Below are positions 9,001 through 46,320 of a DNA stretch of 64,000 nt, piece by piece. Source of the DNA: Crossaster papposus. Lineage: Eukaryota > Echinodermata > Asteroidea > Velatida > Solasteridae. The notes below the pieces were generated by a model. That model was given only the letters and a program-made list of their open reading frames with translations, was not told the origin of the DNA and did no database searches. The position numbers and the translations under genes were made by a program. Every line of letters starts with the position of its first letter. Position 1 is the first letter of the stretch. The stretch covers positions 124,001 through 188,000 of the forward strand of contig JBAIAA010000107.1 in assembly GCA_037893245.1 (NCBI GenBank), given 5' to 3'.

Positions 9001-9040
9001 CACCAAGTTCGGCAAGCCTACATCCAAGCACAGCCAAGTG

Positions 9041-11589: not shown

Positions 11590-11962
11590 GCTGAAAAGCA
11601 CCCTTTCAAATATTTTAAAGGAGACTAAGGAACAATAGTTTAACAATTTAAACGTCAAGAAATTACTAGACGCAGCTGATAATCCTCGGCTGTATAAATT
11701 CAACGGAAACAATGGAACTAGGGTGTCGAATAGGCCTAATCACTAAAGTGTGATACCACAATATAGCACGTCCACGAAGCATGCTTGGCAACATTGACAT
11801 ATACTCATGTGCACCGCGTGTATGCATACATGTTGTGTATACCCATCCTCCGCAGCGCTAGCGGGTAGCTTTTGGCGTAAATACACTTCAACTGCAACAA
11901 CCAAGAAAACCTTGGCAGCGTATATACACGTCCTCCGCGGAATTAAACTGCTGTGCCCGACG
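11590..11962 (+). repeat. 5' part of a repeat interrupted by the CR1 LINE
   Basis: It matches 54190-54535 through ACGCAGCTGATAATCC, GAATAGGCCTAATCACT and CAACTGCAACAA. The 3' part resumes at about 16995-17113, after the LINE. This means the open frame seen upstream of 11990 belongs to the interrupted repeat, not to LINE ORF1. Confidence 0.7.
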
Positions 11963-11989
11963 AGTTTTCTATCAAAACTCGACACTAAG

Positions 11990-13825
11990 ATGCAGGATAT
12001 CGTGTCTAAATTCCAAGTGTCGCCGCCTATGTCATTGCGGTCAGTGCTAAGTAGTGATTTTACCATTGATGAATTGTTACAAGCGAGGATTGTGATTTTT
12101 GAAGCTGCGATGGAGAAGTACCGTGAAGACGTCCAAGATGGCGACGAAACGGGCGACTCGTCAAAAAAGCTAAGTACAGTTTTTTCACTTAAATCCCGTA
12201 GATCTAATCAAACAGCATCCGATGACATCAAGGACCTATGTCTGTATATTTTTGGTCATCGGAACACTTTTCCCATGTCTTGTCTTAGTTCAGCTTGTCA
12301 GATAAATTACAAGCAAACAATTACTACAGATCGGGACTTAACAGGTGTCACAACCCCCGATCAAGTCCCCGAACCCACCCCACAGGTCATTTATCAAGCC
12401 ATCATACAGGTCAAAAATGACATAAAATTACTTGATCAGAAATTTTCAGACCAATTTGCAACACTATCTGACCAGATTTCTCGATCTTCTTGTTCCCAAA
12501 GGGAAACAATAGACCACCTGAAGAAGGAATGTGACGCTCTCCATTCTACCATTGATATGCTGATGAGTCCTTCTCGTGAAGCCCATGATGATTCAGAACG
12601 CCCGCCGAGTGCTCTGAGCCGGAACCACCCATGGACGCCCACAAGTCTAGCCAGTCCAGCGAGCCACCGTACAGCGGATCTCAGTCCAGCGAGCCACTGT
12701 ACATTGGATGTCGGCCCAGCGGTTCTGGTACCGACAAGCAACCGCTTCGCTGCATTGGCGACAGAGGATCCCGTCATCACCGACTCCAGCACCGGTGATT
12801 CCCGGACCGAGGCCGAGTTGGTGATCGACACGTACTTCGAAGTCTTGCAGCTAAACGGCCAGCCTGACACCGAGGAGCAGGGATCCTCCCCAACCCCAAA
12901 CCATTTGCCCCATCCCTCAAAAACTAAAATGTCCTTAGCATTTGACGAGCAGCTGAATCAATACCGGAAAAAGCACAAGAAGCTGACCACTGCAAAGGAC
13001 AAACCGGCACCTAAAGTAAAACAATCACCAACGGAACACCACTGTGCAGATGTGCTTCTAATCGGTGACTCGATGATAAAACGGCTTCAGCCCAGGAGAT
13101 TGAGCAGGCAAAAGAAAGTGATGTGCCACACCATGCGTGGAGCAAAAATCCAAGATCTTGCTCCCCACGTCATACAGCTGTCGACCAAGCACGACGTATC
13201 TCGGGTAATTCTCCATGTTGGGACCAACAACACATCCGACAACCCGGAGACTATTGCCGCTCAGATCACCTCCCTCGGCGAGTCACTACAACCAAGATCA
13301 GTGACAATATCTTCGATCATACACCGTAAAAACCAAACGGTGCCACAGTGCAAGAGAGTAGATGATTCCAATAATCTGCTCAAGTCCATAGCAAAGCGAA
13401 ATAACTGGGGCTTCATTGACAACGGTAACATAAACTCAAACCACCTTGTGTCGGACGGTGTGCACCTCGACTCGGCAGGAGTGCGCCTACTTGCCACGAA
13501 CATTATCCAACACATCAAAGGACCACCAAAGACCTTTGATAGTCGCATTCCACATCAGAAAACCCCTTTCGGTCAGAGTTTGTACTCTGATGTCCTGACG
13601 AAGCGGACTACAGCGACCCGTGATGTTCCGACGGGTTTTCTAATGGCCAACCAGTATTACCCGCATCCCCATCAGAAACGGCACCAAATCAACCTCAATC
13701 AACGACGGCAGCCAGTATCCCAGACCAGAGCACCCGCCCCGACACATTATCGAGGCCAGGAGTGGAACCAACATCTGAAAATGGTCAGGGAGCTGCTCAA
13801 CCCACAAGGCAAGGTTCTAAAATAG
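11990..13825 (+). CDS. LINE ORF1 protein with SGNH/GDSL esterase domain
   Basis: The 611-aa frame starts at MQDIVSKFQ. I chose this ATG because the longer frame from 11807 runs into the interrupted host repeat. Residues about 150-190 look coiled-coil. A Ser/Pro-rich linker follows, then an SGNH hydrolase fold at about 353-510: GDS motif at residue 359 (GDSMIKR), GTNN at 411 and DGVHLD at 489 supplying the likely Asp/His. Esterase-type ORF1 proteins are known in the CR1 group of LINEs; their role is thought to be in RNP formation or membrane/lipid contact. The last 64 nt overlap ORF2 in another frame, so ORF2 probably depends on reinitiation or a similar mechanism. Confidence 0.85.
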   Translation: MQDIVSKFQVSPPMSLRSVLSSDFTIDELLQARIVIFEAAMEKYREDVQDGDETGDSSKKLSTVFSLKSRRSNQTASDDIKDLCLYIFGHRNTFPMSCLSSACQINYKQTITTDRDLTGVTTPDQVPEPTPQVIYQAIIQVKNDIKLLDQKFSDQFATLSDQISRSSCSQRETIDHLKKECDALHSTIDMLMSPSREAHDDSERPPSALSRNHPWTPTSLASPASHRTADLSPASHCTLDVGPAVLVPTSNRFAALATEDPVITDSSTGDSRTEAELVIDTYFEVLQLNGQPDTEEQGSSPTPNHLPHPSKTKMSLAFDEQLNQYRKKHKKLTTAKDKPAPKVKQSPTEHHCADVLLIGDSMIKRLQPRRLSRQKKVMCHTMRGAKIQDLAPHVIQLSTKHDVSRVILHVGTNNTSDNPETIAAQITSLGESLQPRSVTISSIIHRKNQTVPQCKRVDDSNNLLKSIAKRNNWGFIDNGNINSNHLVSDGVHLDSAGVRLLATNIIQHIKGPPKTFDSRIPHQKTPFGQSLYSDVLTKRTTATRDVPTGFLMANQYYPHPHQKRHQINLNQRRQPVSQTRAPAPTHYRGQEWNQHLKMVRELLNPQGKVLK

Positions 13826-16683
13826 ACATAACAGATGGTATTATCTGCAATCAAAGTTCCGAGGGTTTCTCATTCGCCCATCTTAATGTAAGAAGCCTCA
13901 TAAACAAATTTGACCATTTTAAGATTGTAATGTCTAAAAATCCATTCGACATCATCTGTCTAAACGAAACTTTTTGCGACGCCTCAATCTCTGATGACGA
14001 AATAACTCTACCAAATTATTCTATTGTCAGAAAAGACAGGAACCGACATGGTGGCGGTGTTGCAATTTACATTCGAGATACCCTAATGTTCTCTCGTCGT
14101 GAAGATCTCGAAATATATGATGTCGAGTGTATATGGGTTGAAATTAAGTGCAAACAAAGACAGCCTGTGCTTATCAGTTCTATTTATAGGCCTCCTTCAA
14201 GCTCTGTCGAATTTATGGGAAAACTGAGTGATATCCTTAATAAGGCCTCGTGTGAATGTAAAGAAATTATTACAACTGGGGACTTTAATTGTGATGTTTC
14301 AGATGAATACGATAGTATGCAATCAAATCCAATTATTTCTTGCTTTAGTTTGTTCCAAATGGCGCAACTCATACATGACCCAACACGTGTCACTGAATCT
14401 ACTAAAACTACCATCGATCTCATTTTTAGTTCCCACCCAGAGCTCATAAAGGACTGTGGTGTTTTACCAGTCCTAATCAGTGATCATTATCTTGTTTATG
14501 GGCTACACAGTTGGAAAACACCAAAAATGAAAGGTCGTTCAATAAATTTTCGATGTCTAAAAAATATAGACAGTGATGCATTTACGGACGATCTCCGTAA
14601 TGCACCATGGCAAGATGTTTTTGGTTGTTATGATGTGGATAATGCATGGTCTATATGGTACTCCATATTTATGAGTATTATTAACCTCCATGCGCCAGTC
14701 AAAACCAAACGCATTCGGGGTGCCTCAGTTCCGTGGCTCGATAGCGAAATTCTTAAACTTATGCGGCAGCGCGATCGTGTACACAAAATTGCAAAGCACA
14801 CAGGCTTACAAATTCATTGGGATTCATACAAAAACCTGCGGAACAATGTTACTAATAAAATCCGCAGTAAAAAGAGTAATTACTACACATCCGCCATAGA
14901 AGAAAATAAAAGCAACTCTTCTATGCTGTGGAAAACTCTGAAGGAGGTACTCCCTAAGAAACAAATAACTGTACCAAATTCGATTACTTCCCCAAATGGG
15001 GAAAATATTGACAATATCGCCGACATTGCTGATACATTAAATGAACACTTTTCAACAATCGGCAAGCGTACTGCTGGAAATTACCCTTTGCGTGAACTTG
15101 AAATAGATGACAATACTGACGCCTCTATATTTGATTCTGTTGATGAAGATTGCGTAGTACCTAACATTACAGAAGAGTTTGTTCGAAAGCAAATATCATC
15201 TATGTCGGTTGGGAAAGCAACAGGTCCGGATGGAATTAGTGTTAAAATGATTAAAATTGCTTCACCTTATATCATTAAATCTTTAACTCATATTGTTAAC
15301 CTGTCTATAAGATGTGAGCGATACCCTAAAGATTGGAAACATGCTTTAGTAACACCAATTCACAAGGGAGGAGATAAATGTAGTACAGGTAACTATCGTC
15401 CAATTTCTATACTGCCAATTATCTCTAAGATTTTAGAAAGATGGGTGCACTCATCGGTATATAGATATCTTGATGAAAACAATCTGATTCCTAGTTGCCA
15501 GTCGGGATTTAGACCCCTGCACTCAACTGAAAGCACCCTACATGACTTAACAAACAAGTGTTTTGCGGCCATGGAGAATGGACAAGTTACAGGCAGTGTG
15601 TTTATAGACCTCAGTAAAGCATTTGATTGTGTTGATCATGAAATCTTACTAAAGAAACTAGAAAGGATGAACGTGTCATCTTCTGTAACAAATTGGTTTA
15701 AGTCGTACCTAAGTGAACGTAGTCAGTCTGTGAATATTGGCGGCACCATATCAAAGGTCCTGTCCGTAAACACTGGTGTTCCACAGGGGTCGATACTAGG
15801 TCCACTTTTATTCATTGTTTATACTAGTGACCTTCCATTTTGTATTGCCCCAAACTGCAACTTATTTATGTATGCAGATGACTCAACATTAACGTGTAGC
15901 TCCTCCAACATTAATATAATAGAAAGTAGCTTAAATACAGCTCTTACTAGTTTTCACAACTGGTGCGGAAGAAACAAGCTAGCTTTAAATGCCACCAAAA
16001 CCAAATGCATGCTTATTGGTACTAGGCAGAAAATATCTAATGTTAATTTAAATGTATGCATTGCTGGTAGTCGTATTGAAAATGTGAAGTCATATAAATG
16101 TTTGGGTGTAATTATTGATGAAGCATTAAGTTGGGGCCCACATGTCGAATACGTAAGAAAAAATGTGGTGTCTAAATTAGGTATAAGAAGAATCCGTGAT
16201 TGTATTCCTCAGCACAGCTTGCACACACTATTTGTAAGTCTAATTATGCCAACATTAGAGTATTGTTGTACTGTGTGGGGAGGAAGGTACATATCTCACG
16301 ATAATATTTTAAACAAATGTCTCAAAAGAGCCGCGCGGATAATCCTTAAATGTACCTTCCTCACCCCTTCAGAGGATATGTTTGCTCGTCTTAATTGGAC
16401 CCCTTTTTCAAAAAGAGTCAAGTCAAAAAAGGCTATTCTTGTCTTCAAAAGTATCAACAAAATGACTCCTTTGTACATGACAAATATTTTCAAACCACTT
16501 ACAGTAATTCGCGAAACAAGGCAATCAACCCACACGGCACTGAAAGTTCCTTTCGCCAAAAAAGAATGCTACGCCACAAGTTTCGCTGTGAGTGGTGCAA
16601 ATATTTGGAATAATCTGCCCGAACAATTGCGAACATTGGACTCATTAAGCACATTTAAATCAGAACTCCGACATGCCATCTGA
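13762..16683 (+). CDS. LINE ORF2 polyprotein: APE endonuclease and reverse transcriptase
   Basis: The 973-aa frame has no internal stop. The AP-like endonuclease is at about 37-245: N in LNVRS near 41, E69 (NETF), GDFN at 173 and SDH at 240, the metal-binding and catalytic positions of the family. Reverse transcriptase starts at about 484 (GKATGPDG), with later motifs including FIDLSKAFD, GVPQGSILGP and the catalytic YADD at 704-707. The C-terminal segment ends with the CR1-typical WNNLPEQLR. The enzyme nicks target DNA and copies the element RNA in place. All visible key residues are intact. The start at 13762 overlaps ORF1 by 64 nt; a later start is possible. Confidence 0.93.
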   Translation: MEPTSENGQGAAQPTRQGSKIDITDGIICNQSSEGFSFAHLNVRSLINKFDHFKIVMSKNPFDIICLNETFCDASISDDEITLPNYSIVRKDRNRHGGGVAIYIRDTLMFSRREDLEIYDVECIWVEIKCKQRQPVLISSIYRPPSSSVEFMGKLSDILNKASCECKEIITTGDFNCDVSDEYDSMQSNPIISCFSLFQMAQLIHDPTRVTESTKTTIDLIFSSHPELIKDCGVLPVLISDHYLVYGLHSWKTPKMKGRSINFRCLKNIDSDAFTDDLRNAPWQDVFGCYDVDNAWSIWYSIFMSIINLHAPVKTKRIRGASVPWLDSEILKLMRQRDRVHKIAKHTGLQIHWDSYKNLRNNVTNKIRSKKSNYYTSAIEENKSNSSMLWKTLKEVLPKKQITVPNSITSPNGENIDNIADIADTLNEHFSTIGKRTAGNYPLRELEIDDNTDASIFDSVDEDCVVPNITEEFVRKQISSMSVGKATGPDGISVKMIKIASPYIIKSLTHIVNLSIRCERYPKDWKHALVTPIHKGGDKCSTGNYRPISILPIISKILERWVHSSVYRYLDENNLIPSCQSGFRPLHSTESTLHDLTNKCFAAMENGQVTGSVFIDLSKAFDCVDHEILLKKLERMNVSSSVTNWFKSYLSERSQSVNIGGTISKVLSVNTGVPQGSILGPLLFIVYTSDLPFCIAPNCNLFMYADDSTLTCSSSNINIIESSLNTALTSFHNWCGRNKLALNATKTKCMLIGTRQKISNVNLNVCIAGSRIENVKSYKCLGVIIDEALSWGPHVEYVRKNVVSKLGIRRIRDCIPQHSLHTLFVSLIMPTLEYCCTVWGGRYISHDNILNKCLKRAARIILKCTFLTPSEDMFARLNWTPFSKRVKSKKAILVFKSINKMTPLYMTNIFKPLTVIRETRQSTHTALKVPFAKKECYATSFAVSGANIWNNLPEQLRTLDSLSTFKSELRHAI

Positions 16684-17113: not shown

Positions 17114-17289
17114 TTAAGCCCAAGACTAATTTCTTTGCAGATTTCTGTGCACATTTCTGCGATGTCAGCACATAAAGGTACCTTTTTATCATACATTAAT
17201 CGCAAAGATTGTTTTCTTCGGCAAGATTAGGTGATCATACATGGTATAGCTTTGTCCAGGGTACAGGTAAACTCGGCCCCTACCCTACT

Positions 17290-17857
17290 AGAAAAATCAG
17301 TCATCATGATGACTGAATTTGGTCATCGTTTGCAAAAGAGGCATCAGAGGCATCAGAGGCATCAAAAGGGCAGCATTTGGAACCCTCAAATAAAGAAACA
17401 AATAGGGATTTAAAGTCATCAACAGTCATCACAATGATGACTATTTGATGAAACATGCACCAAATAGTCATCATTTGTGATCAGGCATCACTACCGATGA
17501 CTCTTTGATGCCTGATCACAAAGAGTCATCAGTAATCGGGCATCATCAAACAGTCATCAGGAACCAAACAGGCATCAAAGAGGCATCAAACGGTCATCAA
17601 ATGTGATCAGGCATCAAAACAGTCATCAAATGTGACCAGGCATCAAAACAGTCATCAAAACAGTCATCAAAACAGTCATCAAAACAGTCATCAAAACAGT
17701 CATCATAATGTTGGGATCAGGCATCAAAACAGTCATCAAACAGTCATCAGTTGGGATCAAACAGGCATCAAACAGTCATCGGTTGGGATCCGGCATCACA
17801 GAGTCATCAAACAGTCATCAGATATGATCCGGCATCAAACAGGCATCAAAGAGTAAT
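17290..17857 (+). repeat. Left subterminal repeat array of the CACTA element
   Basis: Dozens of heptamers of two types, GTCATCA and GGCATCA, separated mostly by AAA, AAACA or GAT-type spacers. A section at 17640-17705 repeats AAACAGTCATC every 11 bp. Such arrays are the binding sites of the accessory protein TNPA in plant En/Spm. The frames here (17231-17413, 17632-17856) are translated repeat. Confidence 0.85.
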
Positions 17858-18815
17858 TAATTATGCAAAAAAAAAAAAAAAAACCCATAAAAGCACAATA
17901 ATTCACTCCAAATGCATCATATTGAAATACAAATGCAACCCTGGTTGCTTCCTTTATTCTACTGTTGCGTTAGAAAGTTTAAGCTCAATCGGTCAAATCG
18001 GTCAAGCGGTTCAAACATGGTTTTCGACTCATGAGGTAAAAACTAATTGTTTTACTCATTTCTCAAAAACTACAGCACCTCAGCCAGTAATATTTCAAGG
18101 GAAGCTTTCTGTCATCATTATCTTTAAACCTTGTAAGTTTAATGTGAATCTGTGAGCTTTTCTGTTTTGTGTTTTACCAGAAGTATAGAGACCCTTTCAA
18201 ATATTTTAGTGGAAAAATATTTCTTTCTCGAAAACTACGTTTCTCACAATGTTTTATACTATCAAAAGCTCTCCATTGATCGTTAACAAGTAAGTTTTTA
18301 TGCTAACAGTGATTACCAATAGTGTCCAGTGCGGATACTGGTCTTTGAAATTTACCAAAAGTATGGACTCCCTAGTTAGTTACAGTTGGCAAGTTACAGG
18401 CATTGTACTTCAATGTCTACTCAGCCTTAGAGTTACCGGTAGATGAACGCCTGGCATTATAACAGGCACTGTTGATGATCCGGACGACATCAGTCTTCTT
18501 CAGAGGTTGGATGTTGTTTTCAATCGCAAATTTAGAGATGAAACCTTGAAAAGAAATAAATATGAAAGAAATCTATTGAGCAAACATTTTAAAAGCACTA
18601 AATATCTGCATCCGTGTTTTATCTGTCATGGCAAAATTGATGTATGTTGTGTAGCCGCCATGTGGTTTTTGGAGATTGCTAAACTAGAACTACCCAGTAA
18701 TTGCATGGGACTCACATGACAATATATCAAGTATTTTTGTACTCAAAAGTGCAAAGAAAAATAATTGCCCAGGCATGAGCTAAGGGGATGTAAGTGTACT
18801 CCAGATATCAAACAG
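17858..18815. other. CACTA interior, left side, no confirmed gene
   Basis: An A tract at about 17867-17883 is followed by AT-rich sequence. The frame at 18507-18719 (+) starts MDVVFNRKFRDETLKR and has no recognisable domain or clear splice context. This segment holds the 3' side of the BEN gene, whose stop codon is at 18816-18818. Confidence 0.4.
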
Positions 18816-21800
18816 TTACATACTTTTAACAGCTTGAACAGCACTCTCTGGTAGGGCCTCTCGGCTGTCATCTTTGCCCCTCTGACCCTTGCAACACGAC
18901 TTGGAAAGTTGTTTCCTGGAGAACAGTGTCAAAAGGAGATTCCTCACAACGACCTTAAGTCCCTTCGTATCCTTTTCACCCAGTGATGCCTTCACTGCAT
19001 CCTGTTGTTTAGCAGTGACATACACGCCTGGATACAGTTCCACTTTTTGAATGCCACAGCTCTAATGAAGGATCAAAATAAAGAAAAGAAAAATTGAAGT
19101 TACACCTACAAAACTTCATTTTCAATTTGCACAAAGAAAAATTGATGGAACAAGGATTCGGTCCCAAGAGGTTTAAGTCCTTGTTTAGTCAAATTTTATT
19201 TCCACAATTGCCAAATTCATTTAAAAATATTCCCAGTCAGTTTAAATTATTGTTGCCTGTCAAACAAATACAATGACAATTTATCATTTACTGTTATATC
19301 AGTAGATCCTTCGGTTGGTTTAGAACTTGTTTTTTTCCATTGTTTAATGGGTATGACCCCCCATTATAAAGCAAATCAAGAGTTTTGGATTGTGACTGGC
19401 AACCCAGACCAATCAAAGGTGCTATTTGGGAGGACGAAACTGCAGGCCTGGAAACCTCAGGTGGTAGAGTGCTGGTACGGTAAAACACATTTAAAGTTAA
19501 AAATTCCTTTCAAAATTGTCCAACTTTTTTCTGTCCAAACATTTTCAGATGAAATGGTAAATTCTGAAGAAAAAAAAAAAAAAAATGTTGGTATGGGGGT
19601 CTGCCGCTCTTCAGTTGAAATCAACGGTACTGTGTTGCTCTCAGATTCATAAGAACTGGTTTCAAACAAAAGTTTGGGAAAAATAATACCTGAAAAAACA
19701 AATTGATAAAAAAATACGTACATCAGTTTCCTTACACCACTGCCATTCGGGGGTCAAGCTCGGTGCTTCCTCAGTCACCTCCCGTCTTCTGTTGTCCATT
19801 GATGTGGATGCCTCAGACGGTGGCTTGGGGTCTGCTGGAGGTGTGGGCTTGGGGTCTGCTGGAGGTGTGGGCTTGGGGTCTGCTGGAGGTGTGGACAGGT
19901 CCGTCGGTGGTGCAGAGGACACTGTTGTGGGCTGAATAAAAAAGAAAGATACATGTATAATCAGATCATTCAGTGTTGAATTCATCCGATTTGCCCACTT
20001 ACAAAGTAGTGAGGAATAACAGTCTAGAAATTGTCTGTCTTCATCTGCCAAATAACCTTACATACATTTTCATGTTTATTTTGGTTTTTATAATCTAACA
20101 AGTAGAAAACAACGGCTCTGGGCTGAGTGCATCGAGGTACAGCTTGACTGAAGTCGACTGAAAAATACTAAAAACCAAGTTTTTCAACTGTTGTCTTTAA
20201 GTACATGAATATCAAACATACCATAGCATCAGCCCCCGTTTCCTCCAAGAAGCAGACTAAATTCTTCATGAATTTTACCTTCCTTGGTGTCACATCTGAA
20301 AGTAATCAAAATTAACATCTGAGAGGTAAAAATATACCAAAAGAAAACATACCAATGTCATTGCAAGAAGATGTCAATGCAGAGATTGTACTGCAGCACA
20401 TGTATTATGGGTTTGGGAGATATTACCATATCCATATGCAACAAATTACTTTTATGCTCATGCAGGCCAACTTTGCAAAAAATTGTTAGTAAGGATGTGT
20501 TGATTGTAGTCCACACCCCAGATAAATAGAAGACCCAGTCACTCACTGACTGAACAGAATACTTAGATGTGAAACTGATGGGAATCCCTGTGCCATTTGT
20601 CTGAGGCATAGAAGGCCCATGTAGCATCTCTGGGGTCGCATCATTTAGATGGCATGGAGGGACCGTGTGCTGGTACATGTACAGTTTATATTAATTTAAA
20701 GAACCCAACTGCACGTATCGTGAAAGAGGGGATTACGTATACCCCCAGCATCTCTGGTTGGCAGCAAGATGTGCTGCAGTGCTTTGTATATCTACGAAAA
20801 AGCACTCTATAAATATGTATACACATGTAATTATTATTAATACATGCTTACTCAGAGCAGGCCCAGGGCTTGACTTGTTCTCTCCCAACATTTCCTGAAG
20901 CTGCATGTTTCTCTCCTTGGACTCGGCCAGCTCATTCTTCAGCTCGGCTATCTGTCTCCGCAGATCTACATTCTCTGCCAGGCATTCCTGGTAGGCCTGG
21001 TACGAGTCGTTTCTCCCCAGGAGCTGGGTAAAATACCCATCAGGCCGGTACTCGGGGAACATGTACGATGGGTATGTGGGCGTTGGCTGCGGAAGTGCAG
21101 ACCAATTTGTGTAATTGTTCTGCAAATACACATATGTAAGGAAAAAATCATACAGGTTAGTAGATCAAGAGTAATAAACATTAAAGACACCCACATCAGA
21201 TTAAACAAGTTGACAGCTTGATGATCATCTTCCCTACCTGTGGTGGTTGTTGTTGTTGTGGCAGTGGTGGGGTGGTGACTCTTGGCACTAGCAAGTTCTC
21301 TGAGGTTGGGCGAAAGGCAGAGGCAGTAGCCTGCTCATCGCTGCAGGGAAGCTGTATGAATGCAATACACATACACATGAAAACAAAACTGATATGTGAA
21401 AGCCTCAGCAAGGTTACACTTTCAAAAGGTATTTTTTTAAAAGCTGGCTATAACAAGTTTCCCTCTTGATAGTGGACAGCTTGAAGCTAGGCTCTAATAT
21501 AATATGTGAAAATGTTATTTTTATTTTATATGGTAACACATGTTTGACAAGAATAAAATTGTATGGGGGAAAAAGTTGAAAGCTGGATTTCGGAGATTCT
21601 GACAAACAAAGGTCACGATGACGTCACTCGTTAGACTGAGTACTGTCTGACCCCTGCACTCATCCCGAAACTTTGCCATGCAGCAAGCAACTAGACGTCT
21701 GGGTACGCACTCTTTGTGAATTCTAACATATGGCGTATTCGGGTCATTGCATACATTATATGATACCCATCAAATTGTTCTTATCGCATCAGCTGCTTGC

Positions 21801-24800
21801 CAAAAAATATGATTTTGTTGTTTTGTAGCATGATTTGAAATCAGTAACTATTCTTCCTTTTAAATTTCAATAAATCTCACCCTAGAGCTATTAAACGGAG
21901 CCTAGCTTTAATAATCGTCTTTCGTACCTGTGGTGGTTGTTGTTGTGGCAGTGGTGGGGTGGTGACTCTTGGCACTAGCAAGTTCTCTGAGGTTGGGCGA
22001 AAGGTAGAGGCAGTTGCCTGCTCATCGCTGCAGGGAAGCTGTATGAATGCAATACACATACACATATGAAAACAAAACTGATATGTGAAAGCCTCAGCAA
22101 GGTTACACTTTCAAAAGGTATTTTTTTAAAAGCTGGCTATAACAAGTTTCCCTCTTGATAGTGGACAGCTTGAAGCTAAGCTCTAATATAATATGTGAAA
22201 ATGTTATTTTTATTCTATATGGTAACACATGTTTGACAAGAATAAAATTGTATGGGGGAAAAAGTTGAAAGCTGGATTTCGGAGATTCTGACAAACAAAG
22301 GTCACGATGACGTCACTCGTTAGACTGAGTACTGTCTGACCCCTGCACTCATCCCGAAACTTTGCCATGCAGCAAGCAACTAGACGTCTGGGTACGCACT
22401 CTTTGTGAATTCTAACATATGGCGTATTCGGGTCATTGCATACATTATATGATACCCATCAAATTGTTCTTATCGCATCAGCTGCTTGCCAAAAAATATG
22501 ATTTTGTTGTTTTGTAGCATGATTTGAAATCAGTAACTATTCTTCCTTTTAAATTTCAATAAATCTCACCCTAGAGCTATTAAACGGAGCCTAGCTTTAA
22601 TAATCGTCTTTCGTACCTGTGGTGGTTGTTGTTGTTGTGGCAGTGGTGGGGTGGTGACTCTTGGCACTAGCAAGTTCTCCGAGGTTGGGCGAAAGGTAGA
22701 GGCAGTTGCCTGCTCATCGCTGCAGGGAAGCTGTATGAATGCAATACACATACACATGAAAACGAAACTGATTTGATTTGTGAAAATCTCAGCAAGGTTA
22801 CACTTTCAAAATGTAAAACAAAATCCAAAGCTGGGTCAAACATGTTTTCCCCTGGATACTTGGCAGTTTAATAATCAACTTTCCTACTGTACCTGTGGCA
22901 GTGGCTGTGGGGTGGTCGAGCCAGAGGGCTTTCCCTTCAACTTCTCTAAAATGCCTTGGCACATCTTTTTACTAGCTTCTAATGTTGGGTTTGGAGCTGC
23001 CCGCTTCTTCGCACCTGCAAGCTCGGTGGCCTTGGGGGCAGCTTTCTTCCCAGTTGCCTTGGAGACAGTTGTATCGGTGGCCTTGGGGGCAGCTTTCTTC
23101 CCAGTTGCCTTGGAGACAGTTGTCGTATCGGTGGCCTTGGGGGCAGCTTTCTTCCCAGTTGCCTTGGAGACAGTTGTCGTATCGGTGGCCTTGGGGGCAG
23201 CTTTCTTCCCAGTTGCCTTGGAGACAGTTGTCGTATCGGTGGCCTTGGGGGTTGCTGTCTTCTTTGGGGCAGGGTTTGTGATGCCATCAATTTGTTGGCA
23301 CACAGCTCTCATGGCATCTTGTAGTTCCTCTTGGGAGTCTGGACAAAAGGAACATCACTGTGGTTGTTTCTTTCTAATACTAGTGTACATTAAAAGTTTA
23401 AAATGTATGCACTTATTGTAATTTTTTATAAAAGAATACGCATAACTAGAAGTCCAATAAATACACGAAGTATGCCACTCTTGTATTCGCTCTTTGCACG
23501 GATTCGCCATGTGCATGTAGAGCATCGACTTCATGCTTCATTTGTATTGTGTTTGTGCATCTGTTTGGATGAAAGTGTCATTACATTACCATGACAATAC
23601 AGAGTTATATAATGCTTCTATTCACTGCTAATTAGGTGGTGGCTCGCAGTTTCCCCCAAAACAATGGACTTTTGCCATTGATGACATACATGTAATCTAT
23701 CATAGAGTGGCACTTCGTGTATGAACATGTAATGGACTTCTGATAATACACATTTGTTTGCATCTGTTTGTACTTTCTGGATATTATTTTAAGAATCTGT
23801 AAATATTAATTCACATGTAGTTTTTTGACAATACAAGGTCAAGTTCTGTTCAAGAAAGCTGCTATTTAATTTTACTTTTTAGGAAAAGATAGTTTTTAGT
23901 GTTTTTTTAGTTCAGTTTTGACCCTGGCTAAAACGAGAGTTTCAAGAGCAAAGTTTACTTCCTATTGACTTTTTCTATTTTTAAGAACCTGTAGATACAT
24001 GTAGTATTTTTACTTTGGGAGTTTTAATTTCACCGCCAACCCTCTCCATTTAAAAAAAATTGACAGTTTATTCAACTTTTTTGACAAGATTTTTCGTGAA
24101 TCTGTACGATTTTTTGCGATTTAAAATCGTTCTCGATGTTTGAGCGAGTATTTGTACACAGTAACAATAGGAAGCCAAGATGGCGGCACCCATTTGACAT
24201 CGCTATCTCTAGGCCCTATTTCTTTCTCTACTTCATGCTTTCTCTAAAACCACATTAATTCAAAACTCATTTACAATGTTTTATAGGGTAGAGGCAGTAG
24301 ACATTGGTAGATGTAGGCCTAGTTTACTGACATTATCAACAGCTCTCCACTGCTTCTTACCAAGTTACAAGTACTCCTAGGCCAACGTTACTACATCATG
24401 TATAATCATTCATTTGTGAGTAATGTAGCGGCATTATACATACACTTAATATTGACCAGTTGTGCCTTCCATACTTATGCTCTCCATACTTTATGTAAAG
24501 TGCATTATGGGTAAAACCATGCCGTGGTTGGCAAGATGGCGCTGATCGCACGTTTGTGATTAAACCAGTTCGTGTTTGTGTTTAGATATCAACAATCCTC
24601 TCGGTCTTGTGCGTCATATTAGTCATCCGAATCTGTAAAGTAACGTTAATCCCGTTACAGTAATATAACAAAATATGTAGCCTAGCCCTACCTTTAAAAA
24701 AAAAAAAATTGAATAAATGTACAAAATCGGCAAATTAATTTTTTTTCAAGAGAAACAAAGGCCCTATCTATGTCATGTATGTCATGATTTTCAACTTACC

Positions 24801-25103
24801 ACTTATTTTCAAAATCTTTGCGTTGTAAGATTTCCTCCCCGGCCCTTTCCATTTCACCATTCCAGTGGCCCCTTCCACGCGATGATCTTCTTTGACCACA
24901 GAAGACAGTGGCTCGATGCTGGTCAGCTTTTCGTCGACCCAGAAGACCAGGCAGGATTTTCTTTTTTGCTGGCTTAGTTTCGTGTTGACATCTCCAACAT
25001 TATCACGGAGAAGGTCGTTGACATCCAAATGCGAGGGAAACCCATGCGAGGTCATAGTGCACCAAACAATATTGATAATTTTACGCGTTCGATTGTCAAA
25101 CAA
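18816..25103 (-). CDS. BEN-domain protein of the CACTA element (9 exons, about 628 aa)
   Basis: Predicted exons in coding order: 25103-24800, 23338-22893, 22730-22617, 22038-21928, 21351-21238, 21119-20852, 20295-20222, 19931-19722, 19061-18816. All introns are GT-AG, all phases match and the total is 1887 nt (divisible by 3). Exon 1 has a small domain ending CLVFWVDEKL...VKWKGPGRKSYNAKILKIS, a pattern I associate with BEN-type proteins. Exon 2 holds four 18-aa Lys/Ala-rich repeats (KATDTTTVSKATGKKAAP), like a histone H1 tail. Exons 3-5 are three near-identical Pro/Gln-rich exons. Exon 6 is coiled-coil (about residues 403-440). Exon 8 has PPADPKPT repeats. Exon 9 (residues about 548-628) fits a BEN domain: LYPGVYVT, LLLTLFSRKQLSKS, ALPESAVQAVK. 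BEN domains bind DNA or chromatin proteins. The first ATG is uncertain; Met17 is an alternative. Confidence 0.75.
21196..22800 (-). repeat. 689-bp tandem duplication carrying an exon of the BEN gene
   Basis: Identical strings recur 689 bp apart (for example CTGCACTCATCCCGAAAC at about 21654 and 22343). Each unit holds one exon encoding LPCSDEQATAS...TTPPLPQQQQPPQ (38, 37 and 38 aa) with phase-0 boundaries. Adding a copy therefore preserves the frame. Two units are nearly identical, introns included, so the latest duplication is young. The third, at the high-coordinate end, diverges in its upstream intron. The tail of exon 2 (TTPQPLPQ) resembles the exon tail and suggests an older round. Confidence 0.85.
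23024..23262 (-). repeat. 54-bp in-exon repeat coding 18-aa Lys/Ala-rich units
   Basis: Four units within exon 2 of the BEN gene encode KATDTTTVSKATGKKAAP, one lacking a Thr codon. The unit length is a multiple of three and the frame is kept. Confidence 0.85.
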
Positions 25104-25925
25104 ATGTCATGTGAACTCGGCAGTCAAAAGAATTTGAATAATCACAATTGCGGACGTGACGTGTTCGACATGGCAAAAGTAAACGTGGCAGTTGGTCAAC
25201 CTCGGCCTCTTTCCTTGAATTCAGGCACGCGCAGAACAAGTTTCCAATGTTCATGTCAACTACTCCGTGGGCACGAGGTTGCGAATGCGAAGAACCTTGC
25301 TAGGGCCTTTTGGAAACCTTTGCTTCGTCTTTGGCTTTGCCTTCGAATTCCGAATCCCTGGGAAGCAAATAGAAATATAGAAGCAAATGGAAATAGTCTA
25401 ATTTTTGGGTTCACATCAATCGAGTGAATGTTTCTAAAGCACAACAGACATAAGAATGTGGCTGGAGATCTCGCAGTTAGGAATTTAAAATTGCCTTAAG
25501 CCAAAGACAAAGACGAAGCCAGAGATTCGAAAAGGCCCTAGGTAGTCTGGATACTTACTAGTCGCATACGTACGTACGTATCTGTATACAACAACGCGGT
25601 CGACTAGTCTGGTTTCGCGCCGAACCGTAGCGTTTTGGCGAAGTACATGTACATGTACATGTACCGTGTGCGTGGTAATACCACTGGTATGTAAAATGTA
25701 CACATATGCTGAAGGGCGCTAAAACACAAGAGAGCCGACGTCGAACGTACGACGTCCGTGGGTACGGTGTACATGTACGGATCACATGTACGAATTTACA
25801 TACACATGTGCACGGGTTGCACGGTATACGGGATCGCCCGCGCTCAAACATCGCATGATGTCATGGTTGTCTTGCTTCTAAATTTGAGGTAATTAGTGGA
25901 AATTAGGACCAACATCGATGAAAGG
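25104..25925. promoter_or_regulatory. Shared upstream region of the divergent CACTA genes
   Basis: The BEN gene starts at or near 25103 (-) and the transposase ATG is at 25926 (+), leaving about 820 bp between them. Within it lie an ACGTACGT run near 25568-25577, an ACATGTACATGT run near 25645-25665, and further ACATGTAC strings near 25770-25805. No clear TATA element was chosen. A bidirectional promoter is inferred from arrangement only. Confidence 0.45.
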
Positions 25926-28900
25926 ATGTCCACCAATCCAAGACCAAGGACGAAAAGATTTTATAAAGAACGGTTTCGGCACGAGGATCCTTTCGTGGCT
26001 GCACCCAAAACAACCAAATGGAGGTTGAGGAAAGCCGACATGAACCAGGACGATGCCGATGGTTCCGGTTGCAGTCAAAACGGTGTCGATGATGGCCACG
26101 GTAAGACAAATTCGTAGGCCTGCTTTATCCTCATGCATGTAGGCACAGGAATACATTTTGACTTAAGAACAGATCTAATGCACAACTGTAAGTCAATAAT
26201 AATATTAATAATAATGTCGATATGACAGAGGGCTCCTTTGGAAAGCAGTTTGTTAACTGAAAAGGACTACCCTCTTTAAAGATTACATTTACAATAAAAC
26301 AAAATATAAAAAAAATATAAAAAAGTCATAATTTGTCTCTGTTTGGGTTCCTACTGCAATGTGGAGAAACAGATTTTTACTTTTAGGCGAGAATTTACTT
26401 TAACTTAATTAAAATTTATCTGACAAAAACCTTAGCAATAACTGATCAGCTGTTATTTTAAAACCGGTAGGGCACGGGCATGACGTATTTCAGTACGTAT
26501 TTATTTTAAATTACACAGAGTCTGCAAACAAAATCAAACTTTTTTGTACACATGTGCTTGTTGCCAAGTATACACAGCTCATTTCAAAGGCTATTGTGTG
26601 GAGCTACTTAAAGAGAGCCCTGATTGGAAAATATAATTCGCAGACTCGCAGTTTCCATAAACATGATAAAGTTTCCATAAAGAAATAAATTGTGCACACC
26701 ATGAATAATGCCCTTTATCATTTGCTACCCCGTATACAGATAGCAAGGCCAAAGATGATTGCGTGATGACAGCCGTCCTATGTGTACAGAACACCACAAA
26801 ATCTGCACCTGCTATTATTACCGACACGGAAGACAATTTCATGATGGAACATGATGTCTCCTCGATCTCGGCAAGCTCGGAATCAAAGTCGGAGCCAGAC
26901 ACGTCTAAGACCGAGCACAACAAATCAACAAACATGACGGAGGAAAGTCGACTTTGCCATCCTAGTTCTAGTACTACACCAAACGTTATTAGACCAAGGC
27001 CGCCTACCCTTCTTTCTGCCAATGACGCTTGCAACATAGACACTTGCTCTAGTCCTCCCTGTGAGCTACTATGTGAGCTTACTGCGACTAGTTCCCCCAT
27101 CACGCACAATGAACAACATGAGCAACTTGTGTGTGGTACGGCACCTGATGTTGATATGCCTACATTCAACTTTGATAACCTCACAAGGTACATGCTTACA
27201 CATTTTATTTTTTGCAGGGTCATATTATAGACCTGCAACATAATGCAAAAGCACACTTTTTACCAATACGATGGTGCAGTGGTTGGTAAAACTAAAGGTT
27301 GGGGACGACGCACCGTGTGCTATCCATGCCCAATACAAGAACGAGGAGTTTCCCTGATCTATCAGAAACGTCAACAAAGATCGTGAATAGACATACATGT
27401 ACTAAAATGCAGCTCTGGCATTCGGTGTGTGCACAACGGTACAATGCAATTAACAACATAAACCATTTTAGTAATACACTCGCGATATTTGTTTTTGACA
27501 ATTTTCTGATTGATAGGGGAAACTTCATTGGGCTTAGAAAGCCCGCAGTACGTAGCCCTCACCTTTTATGCACCATGCTAAACACTGTGATATACATTAC
27601 GTTTCAGGTTTATTAGTATTACAGCTCACAAACTCACGCAGGTAGGTTTTGACCGGCAATCGTGGACGGGGTATATTGTCCGACCGTCTTCCCTCTTTTG
27701 TTTATACTCTAACGTTTTCGGATGATCGCCATAGGATTTGTACACGGGAAAAGATCGTGGACGTTGTGTCAATTGTGGACCCATTGTGTTTTTCCCAATT
27801 CTTTTGTCCGACGACCACGATTGCCGGACACCCACCTTCTAAGGTCTGTGGTTGAGGAGCTACCTGAATACCACGAATGTAGTACAAACTGTACAAGTTA
27901 CCGATATGTCGATAGTCTTCTGACAGAGTTACAATTTAGACTTGAATTTTTTGTAACACATTGTGTGTTATCGCGAGTTGTCGGTAATTAGTATGACTGT
28001 TTTGTTTTTTAATAAAACAATTCTGATTACCTCCATTGCAATTGCAGTAATAACTATAAACGTCATAAAACATGCAAGTGCAGCCAGCGGAGGCGATCTC
28101 TTGTAAAGATTGGGGACAAGTCAGTTTGGTTTGACCTACATGTATACCCCTTCCCTATGGCCCCAGTGAGGGTGCTGTTTTCACATTTGAAGTCAAATAA
28201 ACTGCATGGTAATTCATGGAATCATTTCAACTTCCTACATGTAGTCATTGTTAAGCCTATGACTATGTTTTGAGTCACACCTGTGACCAGAAGACTTATT
28301 TTTTTTATTTGCAGGTTGAAGGTTTCTATCGATGCCTGTACTGTGGACCCATGGGCAACAAACAGCGCTACAGACGTTGATCAGCAAGAGGGAATGGATA
28401 CAGCCAACAGAGTATGCATTGCTGAAGAGGGTAAGACTTACTTTTAAGTGGGTTGCAGGTAATCAGTAGGCTTATGACCCCTTTGTCGAAGCGTACAGTT
28501 TAGCCTGATGCGTGTGCGATCTAATTTTATAATATAATAGTTGGTTTTTTTTAACCTGGATGCACATTTTTAAAACCTTGATGCGCACGGACAAACAGTA
28601 TCACTTTCCTTTAAAAATTGTTCGTGATTATATTCTTCAGGGGCCAACATTAATTATACTATAACATTTTGAGAAGAACATTGTTTTTATTCATACCTTG
28701 GCCTCCCCTCAAGATCAAGATTGCTTTGATAATGTTTTGTTTACGGTCTTTTGGAGCTGATTGTAGGACTTTCAGTAGTGCCACTGGCCAGAAACAGCGA
28801 TGAATTACAATGGACATTTCGTCACCGACACCACGAACTGACACCCAGGTTTGACACGAGTTTACTCAGTCAACAAATCCGTCTACTTGAGGGTTTTTGG

Positions 28901-31900
28901 TATCATAAAACGTAACAATTCGTTAACTGCTGAAAAACAATTTTTATATTGTGAAAATACGCTTAGTTAATTAATAATTGAATGATTAAGACGGGTGCCA
29001 GTTCGTAAAAACGAAAACTGTCGCGTTTTCGGGGAGTGCGCGCACACAGTGCTTTGGTGCCGCCGTGTTGACAACATCGTGTTCTATTTATTTCGTAGAC
29101 AAACGTGATACGTATACACGGCGTAATACAACTAGCCCTGGGTACGTTGTATCTACAGTGCCAGTTCGTGAAATCTTTTTTACAGCGCGCCCTCGCAATT
29201 TCGTTTTCACGAACTGGCACTGAGTGCAGTGTCACTTCGTGAAACCGAAAAACGCCAGAATGGACTAATTTTTGCAAAACTCCCTAATAAAAATTAGCAA
29301 ATTGGGATGATTCCAGAAAAAAAACTTCGCTATGTTATACTTCATGGCACAAAATGATATATTCGGCAATAATATTTTTTTCAAATTTCTAGAATTTTTG
29401 GTACACATGTGATGCAGAGGGTGCCAGTTCGTGGTGTCGGTGACGATTTGTGTGTGAACATGTACACTTTAAGTGCTTGGCTGTGTGTAAGGGTACAATG
29501 CTGTTTCATTTTCAATTTCATTGGACATGTAGAGCAAAGTGTGTTATTTGCTTTGCTGGTAATAGCTAGACAACATTTTTTTTTATGGATTGTACCCAAA
29601 ACACTGCCAAACATATAAACTCATGGAAACTTTAATTTCATTTTCTTTTTGTTTAAATTTACCAGGCGCTTTGCTGTACTCCGAACACAGTCCTGATGAC
29701 GAGGGGTTAAGCATCGAGGATCAAACAAGACAAGACCACCAAGCTCTCTGTTGCAATAGTGATGAAGAAGATCCACGTAAAGTTCCTCAGGCTTTCAATG
29801 AAGACGATTTGCCACTCTTTCGTGATGCTCAAATTTCTAAATCAGAGAGTGCATTACTGACATTGACATTTGCGCTAAGGCATGATTTGTCTGGAGAGTG
29901 TTTAAGTGATTTGCTCCGACTCCTTGAATTACATTGTCCTTCACAAAATTCATGTGACACGTCATTGCATTTGTTCAGAAACCATGTCAAAGGGCTTAAA
30001 TCACCCGTTAGGTGTCACAGATTCTGTAGTAATTGCAACATGTTCATAGGCGAGGACAAGAGTATTTCTATATGTCCAAATAGTAGCTGTGGCAAAAACT
30101 TTTCACCTAGTGAAGATATGCCATATTTCCTTGAAATTCCTATAGTTGATCAACTGAATAATATGTTCAAACGACCTAAGTTTCATGAACATCTGCTTCA
30201 CAGGTTTAGTACTACAACCAAATGCACCAGTACCATTGCGGACATATACGATGGTTCACTATACCAACAGCAATGTCTGCCAGGGGGGTTCTTGTCGAAT
30301 ACTAATCACATTTCATTTATGTGGTACGTAGATGGAGCCCAGTTGTTCAAATCAAGCAAGGGAAGTTTGTGGGTACTTTACTTAGCTATCAATGAGCTCC
30401 CATATGCAAAAAGAATGAACCCTGACAACATCATACTTGGAGGCCTGTGGTTTCATGATGGAAAGCCTTGCATGAGTTCATTCTTAAAACCCTTCTGTGA
30501 ATCACTAAATGATTTGTATTCAGCTGGTTGCAATGTCTACTGTGTGCACTGTCGAGATGAGGTCACAATAAAGGCCATGGTACTTTGTGGAACCTGCGAC
30601 TTGCCAGCAAAAGCAGCTGTCATGAACATGACCCAGTTCAATGGTCAGTTCGGTTGTCCTGTTTGCTGCCAACCTGGGAAAGTAGTTAAAGCAGGTAGGG
30701 GTCACACTAGAGTGTATCCTTTTGATGTTGAAAACACTGACGGACCACTCAGAAATAATGCCGAGACAATTCAACATGCTGTTGAAGCTACAGCAACTGG
30801 AAAGCCAGTACAAGGCATGAAAGGTCCATCGTGGTTTTCTACATTGGAAGGCTATGATTTGATTCGAGGGACAGGGGTGGACTACATGCATGGAGTCTTG
30901 TTAGGAGTCGTTAGGCAACTTTTAAAGTTGTGGTTTACACCAAAATATTCCTCCTTGCCATTTAGTTGCTGTAAACAGGTTGATGAAGTTGATGAAAGAC
31001 TGCTTAGTATCAGACCACCTAGTTACATCACGCGTCTCCCAAGATCGATCAAACAACACGTCGCATATTGGAAGGCAAACGAGTGCAGGGCTTGGCTGTT
31101 GTTTTACTCTGTTCCTGCACTCTGTGGGGTCTTGTCAAACGATTATTACCAGCATCATCTACTCATAGTAGAAGCTATACATATACTGTGCAAGGTTGAA
31201 ATTTCTCAAGCCGATCTTGTACACTGCAGACGAGTCCTCATCCACTATGTTGCAACATTTGGGGCTCTTTACTCCGACAGACACATGACAATCAATGTGC
31301 ACCAACTCTTGCACTTGGTTAATGTAGTTCAGAACTTGGGACCATTATGGGTTTACAGTTGCTTCTCCTTCGAAAGTCTGAATGGAAAATTGCTTAAGCT
31401 GGTCCATGGTGCCAACAAACCTGTTCTCCAAATTGCAAATGCAGTGACAAGCATGCTTCGGATCCCCGAGTTGGGTGGGAGACTGGTACCGAATTCGAAG
31501 GCGGCTTCCTTATATGGACATTTCCAAGGTCGTGGCAGTAAACATCCAAGTGCTGTTGAAATTGAGCCCGAGATATACATGTTGGGGAAGTTGAAGATGA
31601 GCTCAAGTGATGAATACCTGAACGCAGTAAACAGAGCAGGGGCTGTTGCTACATCAATGTTCTCCTTTTTGCGAGTACGTGTCAACGACCGGCTTGTTTG
31701 CAGTTCCCAGTATGTTGCTTTGAAGAGCAGAGTTTGCTCTGTTGTTATGCTCCGAGATGGCAGTTTTGGAAGGGTCGAGATATTCCTGAAATGTTGTTCC
31801 TGCGATTGTTCTGGTCAATGTAATTGTGAGAGTTCACGGCCAAGATATTTTGCTCTTGTGAGGAAAATGGATGTTGCAGGCTGTGTTGAAGCTGGACTTT

Positions 31901-32091
31901 GCTGTGATGAATTGACTGGAGTATCTCTTCCACAAGTGCAGTTGGTGAGAAGTACATCTGAGCAATTACTTGCCATACAAATTGGAGCGATCAAGGAAGT
32001 ATGTGTGTATGTGTGTATTGGTTTGGAAAAACAGGACCTTCCTGATTTGGAATTTGTAGTTATACCTCCAAATTGCATAGAATGCGATTGA
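25926..32091 (+). CDS. tnp2-type CACTA transposase (4 exons, about 1054 aa)
   Basis: Exons 25926-26100, 26740-27187, 28315-28430 and 29666-32091 join with GT-AG introns and matching phases (1, 2, 1). The total is 3165 nt (divisible by 3). The start ATG (MSTNPRPRTKRFYKERF) is the first after an in-frame TAA at 25890. The N-terminus is basic; exon 2 is Ser/Thr-rich and acidic. Exon 4 begins with a short C-x2-C zinc-binding-like segment (CHRFCSNCNMF...CPNSSCGKNF). The transposase core has YVDGAQLF (Asp near 469), a central CDLPAKAAV (Asp near 558) and CFSFESLNGKL (Glu near 816); these are my candidate DDE residues. Blocks such as GLWFHDGKPCMSSFLKPF and FGCPVCCQPGK are typical of tnp2 family proteins. 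It should cut and integrate the element at its terminal repeats. No frameshift or stop is seen. Confidence 0.85.
27640..27836. repeat. Inverted-repeat element in transposase intron 2
   Basis: GACCGGCAATCGTGGACG near 27648 is mirrored by GACCACGATTGCCGGACACC near 27820-27836. Imperfect arms of about 20 bp bracket about 195 bp. Possibly a small foldback or MITE. The intron splice sites are not affected. Confidence 0.5.
28819..29446. mobile_element. Inverted-repeat element in transposase intron 3
   Basis: 28-bp arms, 28819-28846 and 29419-29446, match with one mismatch (core CGACACCACGAACTG). Related GCCAGTTCGT motifs recur inside at about 28996 and 29159. An inner hairpin has arms 29156-29173 and 29205-29222 (CAGTGCCAGTTCGTGAAA). 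Likely a non-autonomous element carried inside the larger transposon. Confidence 0.65.
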
Positions 32092-32621
32092 GTCAATATT
32101 GGCTTGCCATTTGTTTTAATGCCAGGTGACTGTAGTTATTGGAATATTGTATTTAATTATATCAGGGCTTGAGATTTTCAGACTTTTGTCTGAAATCAGT
32201 CCTTTCTATCCCAGAGAAAGACATCAGTGAGCAATGGAAGTTTCAGACCTTGCATTTAATTTCAGTCCTTTTACTAAATTGACAATCTCATCCCTGTTTT
32301 ATATTGGAATTGTGAATATTGGAATTGTAACCTCCTGTGGAAATCAATAAATCAACACTTGAAGAATGAAGAATATCGCATGATTGTTTTCTTGCAGTTG
32401 TTAATTTATTGGTTCAATTAGGCCCCACATTTATTTGAAGGTTTAAGACATTATTGAAGTTGGTGTTTATTAAAGATTTTAATTTTGGCTTGGTACATTT
32501 TGCAAGTGTGTACAACAACAACAAAGTCAAAGCAAGACCGTTTCACCAACTGTCCAGATAACTTTGTCCATTGCATTGCATATTATAGCATGTATAGTGG
32601 CTTTGGGAAAATAAGCTAAGT
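32092..32621 (+). other. 3' UTR region of the transposase gene
   Basis: Directly follows the transposase stop. AATAAA-like signals are present (TCAATAAATC near 32342). No other gene is seen before the right subterminal array starts. Confidence 0.45.
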
Positions 32622-32975
32622 TTCAGTCATCAATGAGGCATCATCTTTGATGACTGAAACTTAGTTTTTGGAGGATATGATGCCTGTTTGTTAGAAAATT
32701 TTGCAACAGTCATCCACTGTGATGACTGATGATGACTTTGATGCCAGTTTGTGATGACCATTGATGCCTATTGATGCTTCATGATGACCAAATGATGCCT
32801 ATTGATGACACTTTGATGCCTGAATGATGACCATTGATGCCTTTTGATGACGTTTGATGACTGTTTGATGACCTTTTTGCCCAGTGATGACCAAATGATG
32901 ACTGATGATGACTGATGATGACCAAATGATGCCCAATTTTACTCATGATGACCAATTGATGACTGATTTTTCTAG
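32622..32975 (-). repeat. Right subterminal repeat array of the CACTA element
   Basis: Arrays of TGATGAC and TGATGCC, the reverse complements of the left-end GTCATCA and GGCATCA, spaced mostly 3-10 bp apart and ending at the TIR. The inverted orientation of the two arrays is expected for transposase or accessory-protein binding sites. Confidence 0.85.
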
Positions 32976-33154
32976 TAGGGTAACCATCTCAGCCCCAGTC
33001 TAGAAAGTAGAGTTGTCTTGACTTGGAGCCTTAACTTAAGTGCGCCCTCTGTTGATATAATGTTTTTTAAAGTGCATTGCAACTGCTAAAGTACAAAAGT
33101 ACATTATAATAATGTCTTGGGTGGCTGGAGGGTTCACATCCTATAAAACCTTAC

Positions 33155-33371: not shown

Positions 33372-33844
33372 CTGTGAGAGCGAAATGTGTTATTATATTA
33401 AAAACTATTAGGAGGGGGCAGTCAAAATTATATCCGATTTTCAAGAGCTAAGGCACAAATAAGGAAATAACATGAGTAAACTTGAAAAAGGCTACTCGGT
33501 AGAGTGCAGATTTCCACCCTAAATGTTATCCAGATTTCTAATCTGCCCACAGATCAATCTAAAAATATAAAGGAATCATCCTTGTGACCCACCAAGTTTC
33601 GTTAACATTCCTCCCAAATAAATTTCATAATCCTCCTAGCAAACAAACAAACAAACAAACACCCCTACAGCCCAACACCTACAAAGTCGGGACCGGCCCT
33701 CGGTTTCCACCTAGATCACAGGTATAGGGACCAGTTGGGAACCAAGCCCCATTTCCGGGACCGAAATGTTCTTTAATCGTCATATTTGAAAATAAGTATA
33801 TAAAATGACAATCCTGTCAAAAAAGTGTAAATTACCACATATTT
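33372..33844. other. Non-coding stretch
   Basis: Contains an (AAAC)n run near 33645-33661 and nothing else identified. Confidence 0.4.
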
Positions 33845-45590: not shown

Positions 45591-45599
45591 AAAATATTT

Positions 45600-46320
45600 T
45601 CTCAATTATGTTTTGAGTGTTATGAACAGAGTCATTACACATTGCAAATCAAATCTGTGTTCTCAAAATGTGTGTCATGATCTTTGAAAGTGATAAAAAT
45701 TGGGCAAATCTGGTGACTAGTCTGGCAAAAATGGTCGAAATTGCAACTATCTAAATTGTGTAAACTAGTTTTCTCGTAACCCTCCCTACATTGCCTATAG
45801 CTACACATCAGGATGGAATAAAATAAGACTACTTCAAAAACGATACAAATTGAGCTCGACAAAAAATACACTTGATTTTAGTAGAGAATTAACACTAAAA
45901 TGGAAATTGCATATTAATACTCTTGTTGGTTGACTTTTCTTCAAAGCTTCTATCGCAAACGGTTCACTGAAATGTACACGCAATGCACCACATTTACAAA
46001 AGCAGTGCCAGGAAAATCAGTGGAATATAGTTATCAAGCCATGTGAAATATGAATGTTAACATTCATAATTCACAGTAAAGTTCCGGTAATCCAGCTCAT
46101 GATTTGAATAAAACATAAGCGTCTACTAGTCTTGGGCTGTACATTCCAAAACTTAACAAAGAAAGTTTTGCCCTAAAACCTCATAATTGGTTCAAGACAA
46201 CAAGTAAAACGCATAAGCACACATTACAAAACAAGGAAATCCTAAGATTATTCAAATCATCAAATCTCACTTTAATACCAAGTCCTTGACAGACCAAATC
46301 TTTAGGCAGCTAAACTTGTA
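45600..46320. other. Non-coding stretch
   Basis: AT-rich sequence between two repeat blocks; nothing identified. Confidence 0.4.

Follow-up and report, generated by a model that had tools for sequence, protein, structure and literature searches.

The 64,000-nucleotide stretch of the Crossaster papposus genome analyzed here (the window; C107:124001-188000) belongs to an assembly of 1.02 Gb in 1,841 contigs, which was the scope of our genome-wide searches. The window contains a CACTA-type transposable element with two predicted genes placed head to head, one encoding a tnp2 transposase and the other a protein that ends in a BEN domain (Table 1). Short terminal inverted repeats (TIRs), a 2-bp target site duplication, and inverted subterminal repeat arrays, the features by which CACTA (CMC/EnSpm) elements are recognized, are all present at its ends. 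A sequence-only reading of this locus had placed a divergent BEN gene within a tnp2-bearing, TIR-bounded element and had suggested that its product is a counterpart of TNPA, the DNA-binding protein of plant En/Spm. The placement holds: a complete predicted BEN gene lies between perfect TIRs, and we take the CACTA element to have two genes, of which this is the second.

Table 1. Features of the CACTA-type element, in window coordinates.
Feature	Position	Strand	Remarks
Whole CACTA-type (tnp2) element	17283..32980	.	15,698 bp; TA on either side, read as 2-bp target site duplication
Left TIR	17283..17306	+	perfect over 24 nt
Right TIR	32957..32980	-	perfect over 24 nt
Left subterminal array	17283..17860	+	31 forward / 3 reverse G[T/G]CATCA in 578 bp
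Right subterminal array	32620..32980	-	23 reverse / 2 forward G[T/G]CATCA in 361 bp
tnp2 transposase gene, four predicted exons	25926..32091	+	25926-26100, 26740-27187, 28315-28430, 29666-32091; 1,054 amino acids
Inter-gene gap	25056..25925	.	870 bp, start codon to start codon in the gene models
BEN gene (putative accessory), ten predicted exons	18417..25055	-	652 amino acids; exons recur in other copies
BEN gene exons 1-5	25055-24800, 23338-22893, 22730-22617, 22038-21928, 21351-21238	-	computational model
BEN gene exons 6-10	21119-20852, 20295-20222, 19931-19722, 19061-18824, 18544-18417	-	computational model
Exon 1, N-terminal domain	24800..25055	-	conserved across the four families A, A', B, and C
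Exon 2, Lys/Ala-rich 18-residue tandem repeats	22893..23338	-	54-bp repeat, 23023-23262
Exon 6, coiled-coil-like segment	20852..21119	-	heptad look, by eye
Exon 9, first part of BEN domain	18824..19061	-	Pfam, NACC1, and profile matches
Exon 10, end of BEN domain with predicted recognition helix INSACYNARR	18417..18544	-	recurs in copies

Together with the flanking TA, the TIRs (CCCTACTAGAAAAATCAGTCATCA) form a perfect inverted repeat of 26 nt (17281-17306 and 32957-32982). The TIR begins with CCCTACTAG, not CACTA. Matching dinucleotides also flank three other copies (TT at C285, TA at C886:692406-696572, and TA at C131), which is why we read the TA as a target site duplication; a single end was located for a fourth copy, on C886 near 621 kb. 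Repeats of 2 bp at the termini are also found in animal CACTA elements described in 2006, among which the TIR from A. aegypti begins with CCC (PMC1636069, excerpt).

The tnp2 reading frame has no internal stops, and its product matches Pfam Transposase_21 at 36.7 bits, above the cut-off of 28.6. Residues D469, D558, and E816, which we take to be the catalytic acidic triad, are invariant across nine aligned tnp2 proteins from the host genome, and conserved Cys pairs are present. Within the third intron of this gene (28814-29451) are short inverted repeats that share the core GTGCCAGTTCGT, perhaps small nested elements. Divergent promoters presumably lie in the gap that separates the two genes.

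The exon structure of the BEN gene is purely a computational prediction, in which all introns are GT-AG and the reading frame has no internal stop. The sequence-only reading had ended the gene at 18816 and so omitted exon 10, which we found again at C285, C176, C886, C217, and C191 (90-95% identity) and more weakly at four further places. No Pfam family and no PDB match (best E 0.72) was found for the exon-1 domain, and its single-sequence structure prediction was too weak for use (predicted local distance difference test, pLDDT, 46.5). The repeats of exon 2 (54-bp unit, 4.5 copies, 96% matches) had been called Lys/Ala-rich and H1-like. They are Lys/Ala-rich; homology to histone H1 has no support in the Pfam scan, and the likeness is one of composition only because Pfam assigns no family to this exon. 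The proposed coiled coil has the look of heptads in exon 6, but the Pfam matches there, several of them to coiled-coil families, are all below their cut-offs. Within the same gene, a 695-bp segment carrying one exon is duplicated (98.8% identity to the next copy; 21200-22740), and a third exon copy follows, which gives three in-frame Pro-rich exon copies.

The BEN domain itself was evaluated with Pfam (PF10523) and with solved structures. Exon 9 alone scores 15.5 bits and exons 9 and 10 together 18.9 bits against a gathering cut-off of 23.2, so the window protein is not a formal Pfam member. Its best PDB match is the BEN domain of NACC1 (phmmer, 4.9e-5), and a profile built from four related families matches the same domain at 4.8e-11. 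Among the relatives, family B (30.8 bits), C344 (31.4), and C728 (34.0) pass the Pfam cut-off, family C (16.7) and A' (14.7) fall below it, and the piece on C5 gave no match in the Pfam BEN scan. The BEN identity proposed earlier is thus carried by the single and profile matches to NACC1 and by the relatives above the cut-off. The predicted fold of exon 9, taken without exon 10, is weak (pLDDT 59.9) and shows two strands followed by helices. In a set of 5.8 billion proteins, the whole BEN-gene protein had no match at E <= 0.001 among the 7,999 scored candidates sharing most words, a selection in which low-complexity words may have displaced other candidates, and the BEN part had none at 0.01 among 188 candidates. 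The Pfam scans of the BEN-gene exons detected no plant TNPA family, with no TNPA sequence compared directly.

We then asked where the gene recurs. The genome search with tnp2 gave 58 entries from 56 scored candidates out of 349 at first look, so that the tnp2 list is partial; the BEN-gene search gave 39. The sister copy at C285:348643-354222 lies between TIRs, has lost internal sequence, and retains tnp2 (97-98% identity) and the last BEN exons. Another TIR-bounded copy, at C886:692406-696572, retains BEN exons 1, 9, and 10 (72-76%), and the tnp2 search gave no match there. We considered this copy as an intact BEN-only element and rejected it, as only these three exons were located; it is a deletion derivative.

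We also examined the stretches upstream of tnp2 at seven further listed loci (C285, C616, C103, C131, C305, C359, and C5). Five of them have part of a divergent BEN gene: the last exons at C285, and parts at C616, C131, C103, and C5. The part on C103 comprises exon 1, the coiled coil, and the exon-7 motif only, where the stretch read ends, and that on C5 (family D) is weak, with an E of 1.5e-4 for our own profile and a first exon and last helix recognized by eye. The BEN pieces of C616 and C103 are identical, and these contigs may be haplotypes. The tnp2 proteins of C616, C103, and C131 are only about 43-45% identical to that of the window, and each has a divergent BEN partner with the same order of parts (N-terminal domain, coiled coil, and a short TPKK/TPRK motif). 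The BEN domains on C616 and C131 are also split at the corresponding place by an intron in phase 1. Three of the 12 genome-wide Pfam BEN matches sit 5.7, 10.4, and 7.0 kb from a listed tnp2, all three divergently. Under uniform placement the chance of this is about 1e-6, a figure weakened because the C344 and C686 BEN domains are nearly identical and not independent. Of 12 BEN-family places selected from the BEN-gene search, three adjoin a listed tnp2 (window, C285, and C131).

These results bear on whether the window element alone captured or interrupted a host BEN gene. Other BEN genes do occur in this genome, and many BEN-family places have no listed tnp2 nearby, but the TIRs enclose the whole window gene, and several distant tnp2 families have it as their divergent partner; we regard this origin as extremely improbable. 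Simple interruption of a host gene, which the sequence-only reading had named as a finding that would refute it, is rejected on the position inside the TIRs, the parts in other TIR-bounded copies, and the divergent pairing with distant tnp2 genes. The BEN exons are under purifying selection in the one comparison made, that of exons 1, 9, and 10 between families A and A' (193 codons; ratio of nonsynonymous to synonymous substitution, dN/dS, 0.227; dS 0.70; Nei-Gojobori). Synonymous sites between families B and C are saturated and yield no ratio.

Several more distant BEN genes were compared by their first exons. Those of C728, C686, and C5 are alike by eye and were not retrieved by the exon-1 profile search. 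The first exons at L047 (C5; 1997-2230, +), L051 (2795-3133, +), and L052 (3927-3565, -), also alike by eye, each encode an aromatic-rich domain that stops before GK at the likely donor, with no Pfam domain above cut-off. At G000:C17:587085-598527, six copies of the exon-1 domain stand in a row (75-76%) with exon-9/10-like pieces at one end, possibly a repeated-exon or tandem BEN gene.

The GTCATCA/GGCATCA arrays noted in the sequence-only reading are real. Against the counts in Table 1, 500 dinucleotide shuffles of each end gave means of 2.0 (left; maximum 7) and 1.8 (right; maximum 6), and the heptamer is found only 1 time forward and 5 times reverse in the inner 14,759 bp and 3 and 11 times in the rest of the window. 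In the A' element it occurs 33 times forward and once in reverse in the first 700 bp, 4 and 31 times in the last 1,000 bp, and 0 and 1 times between. The family C element (C131:20680-32583; 11,904 bp), with both genes inside its own TIRs and TA flanks, has no G[T/G]CATCA in its ends; it carries 26 copies of GCAAGCTTGC in the first 900 bp, 14 in the last 900 bp, and a single one between. Family B has 30 copies of GCAAGCTTGC in its first 1,300 bp, and its left array (L042 4274-5337, C616) mixes them with 41 copies of a second tandem repeat, GCCAGCAAGATT. AAGCTTGC was found in neither the A nor the A' elements. A candidate right end for family B at L011 (CTAGTATAGGG) was rejected because three near-identical contigs, maybe haplotypes of one locus, agree beyond it. 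At the two ends, adjacent repeats lie 10-12 bp apart in 15 of 32 and 15 of 22 spacings in A, 21 of 32 and 13 of 30 in A', and 9 of 31 and 4 of 21 in C, and family C has a further 9 and 6 spacings of 20-23 bp.

The BEN domain of NACC1 reads the CAT of CATG; in its helix D462, T465, and R469 contact bases, and N466 and R468 contact the backbone (PMC11472053, excerpt). The family A heptamer includes CAT. In the alignment to NACC1, the family A helix carries S, Y, and R where NACC1 contacts bases and N and R where it contacts the backbone. The helix reads INSACYNARR in A and A' and INQKCATCRR in B and C, which places Q, A, and T at the positions of D462, T465, and N466. The two helix types track the two repeat types while both arginines are retained, and therefore helix class and repeat class change together. 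This match between A and A' on one side and B and C on the other is suggestive for the four families compared (B by its left end only), which make up two classes. It also bears on the alternative that the tnp2 protein or a host factor recognizes the arrays and that the BEN protein binds elsewhere. The conserved Cys pairs of tnp2 could bind DNA, but BEN domains bind DNA sequence-specifically and here the helix type follows the repeat type, and we find this alternative highly unlikely.

We consider it likely that the BEN protein binds the ends of its own element as an accessory protein. Pointing this way are the position of the gene inside the TIRs, its pairing with distant tnp2 genes, purifying selection, the clustering of the repeats, and the match of helix to repeat, together with the reading of CAT by NACC1 through the equivalent helix and the retention of R469, the arginine that reads G. 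Tn3 TnpA DBD1 adds support as a bacterial precedent. The last helix of the BEN domain would recognize the subterminal repeats of the element itself, and a row of BEN molecules, with roughly one repeat to each helical turn, could coat both arrays. The coiled coil might then draw the two ends together, and the TIRs would be presented to the tnp2 transposase for cutting. The protein would most likely work like plant TNPA, as a functional analogue.

Several observations weigh against this interpretation. Neither TIR nor array was found within the 10 kb read around the C217 copy, and at C305 and C359, where tnp2 is split or contains stops, the upstream stretch read has no divergent BEN gene. Nine of the 12 Pfam BEN matches and nine of the 12 selected BEN-family places have no tnp2 of the partial list within 15 kb. 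In the helix, D462 and T465 of NACC1 are replaced. The regular spacing may come from tandem duplication of the repeats, and shared ancestry alone could yield the helix/repeat match, with BEN and repeats co-inherited in two clades.

Alternatively, the BEN protein of the element might chiefly repress or de-repress the element, through chromatin or the divergent promoter, rather than act in synapsis of the ends. Most BEN proteins of the cell serve in transcription or chromatin (PMC11472053, excerpt), plant TNPA also regulates its own promoter (PMC1636069, excerpt), and the BEN-gene protein has a basic Lys/Ala-rich part. The repeats, however, are inverted at the two ends and rare between them, as for end recognition, and we think it unlikely that this is the main role; it is compatible with end binding, and the two are not exclusive.

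Taking end binding by the BEN protein as the working interpretation, it is quite possible, and we suggest tentatively, that an animal CACTA lineage uses BEN partners to bind its ends, that helix and repeat co-evolve as a private address, and that leftover copies seed host BEN factors. With a BEN partner whose DNA-reading helix is known, recognition of the ends would be open to direct tests, natural helix/repeat pairs would help in learning BEN specificity, and transposons would be suggested as the source of some dispersed BEN genes. That related elements in this genome carry the same gene pair hints at how such elements tell their own ends apart.

The element has repetitive neighbors. Upstream of it, a pair of long overlapping open frames (11798-16683, +; 675 and 1,019 amino acids) resembles, by eye only, the endonuclease and reverse-transcriptase-like protein of a long interspersed nuclear element (LINE) and stops shortly short of the CACTA element. 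Minisatellite arrays, their units 41 bp and 36 bp long, lie at 33840-34584, 9021-9364, and 44848-48284, and one 41-bp array starts 0.9 kb beyond the right end of the element.

The sequence-only reading knew of no described BEN-TNPA system. Our searches of one open-access library likewise turned up no report that connects BEN with the accessory genes of CACTA elements and nothing that joins the BEN domain to EnSpm; among the papers on the BEN domain and transposases, the one on Tn3 (PMC9579193) is relevant. In the excerpt of PMC5704228, CACTA refers to another element and the mentions of BEN are confined to the cited references; in that of PMC9233729, the mentions of "transpos" concern the assay for transposase-accessible chromatin with sequencing (ATAC-seq) and references. 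DUF4806 has been described as a BEN subtype (PMC11075544, excerpt), and the BEN-gene pieces scanned with Pfam gave no match to it.

The TNPA/TNPD system of maize En/Spm resembles the window element in having a tnp2-type transposase, a second DNA-binding protein, and short repeats arrayed in inverted orientation at the two ends. To our knowledge, plant TNPA has no BEN domain. En/Spm makes both proteins by alternative splicing of a single transcript (PMC1636069, excerpt), whereas the window element has two divergent genes, the second with BEN. SmTRC1 and other animal CACTA elements (DeMarco 2006; PMC1636069, excerpt) share Transposase_21, the 2-bp target site duplication, and, in A. aegypti, the CCC start of the TIR. 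The TNPA counterpart suggested for them arises by alternative splicing, has no detectable relatives, and is considered to be fast-evolving; the excerpt mentions no BEN gene. Among solved BEN domains, that of NACC1 shares N466, R468, and R469 with the window protein; it differs in that NACC1 is a host transcription factor with a BTB domain and in the two residues changed to S and Y in the window protein. Finally, the DBD1 domain of Tn3-family TnpA shows a BEN-like fold that recognizes, with sequence specificity, one box of the terminal inverted repeat (PMC9579193, excerpt); it is part of a bacterial transposase, not a separate gene. Set beside the window element, this BEN-like domain of Tn3 TnpA (PMC9579193, excerpt) raises the question of whether the BEN fold has repeatedly marked transposon ends.

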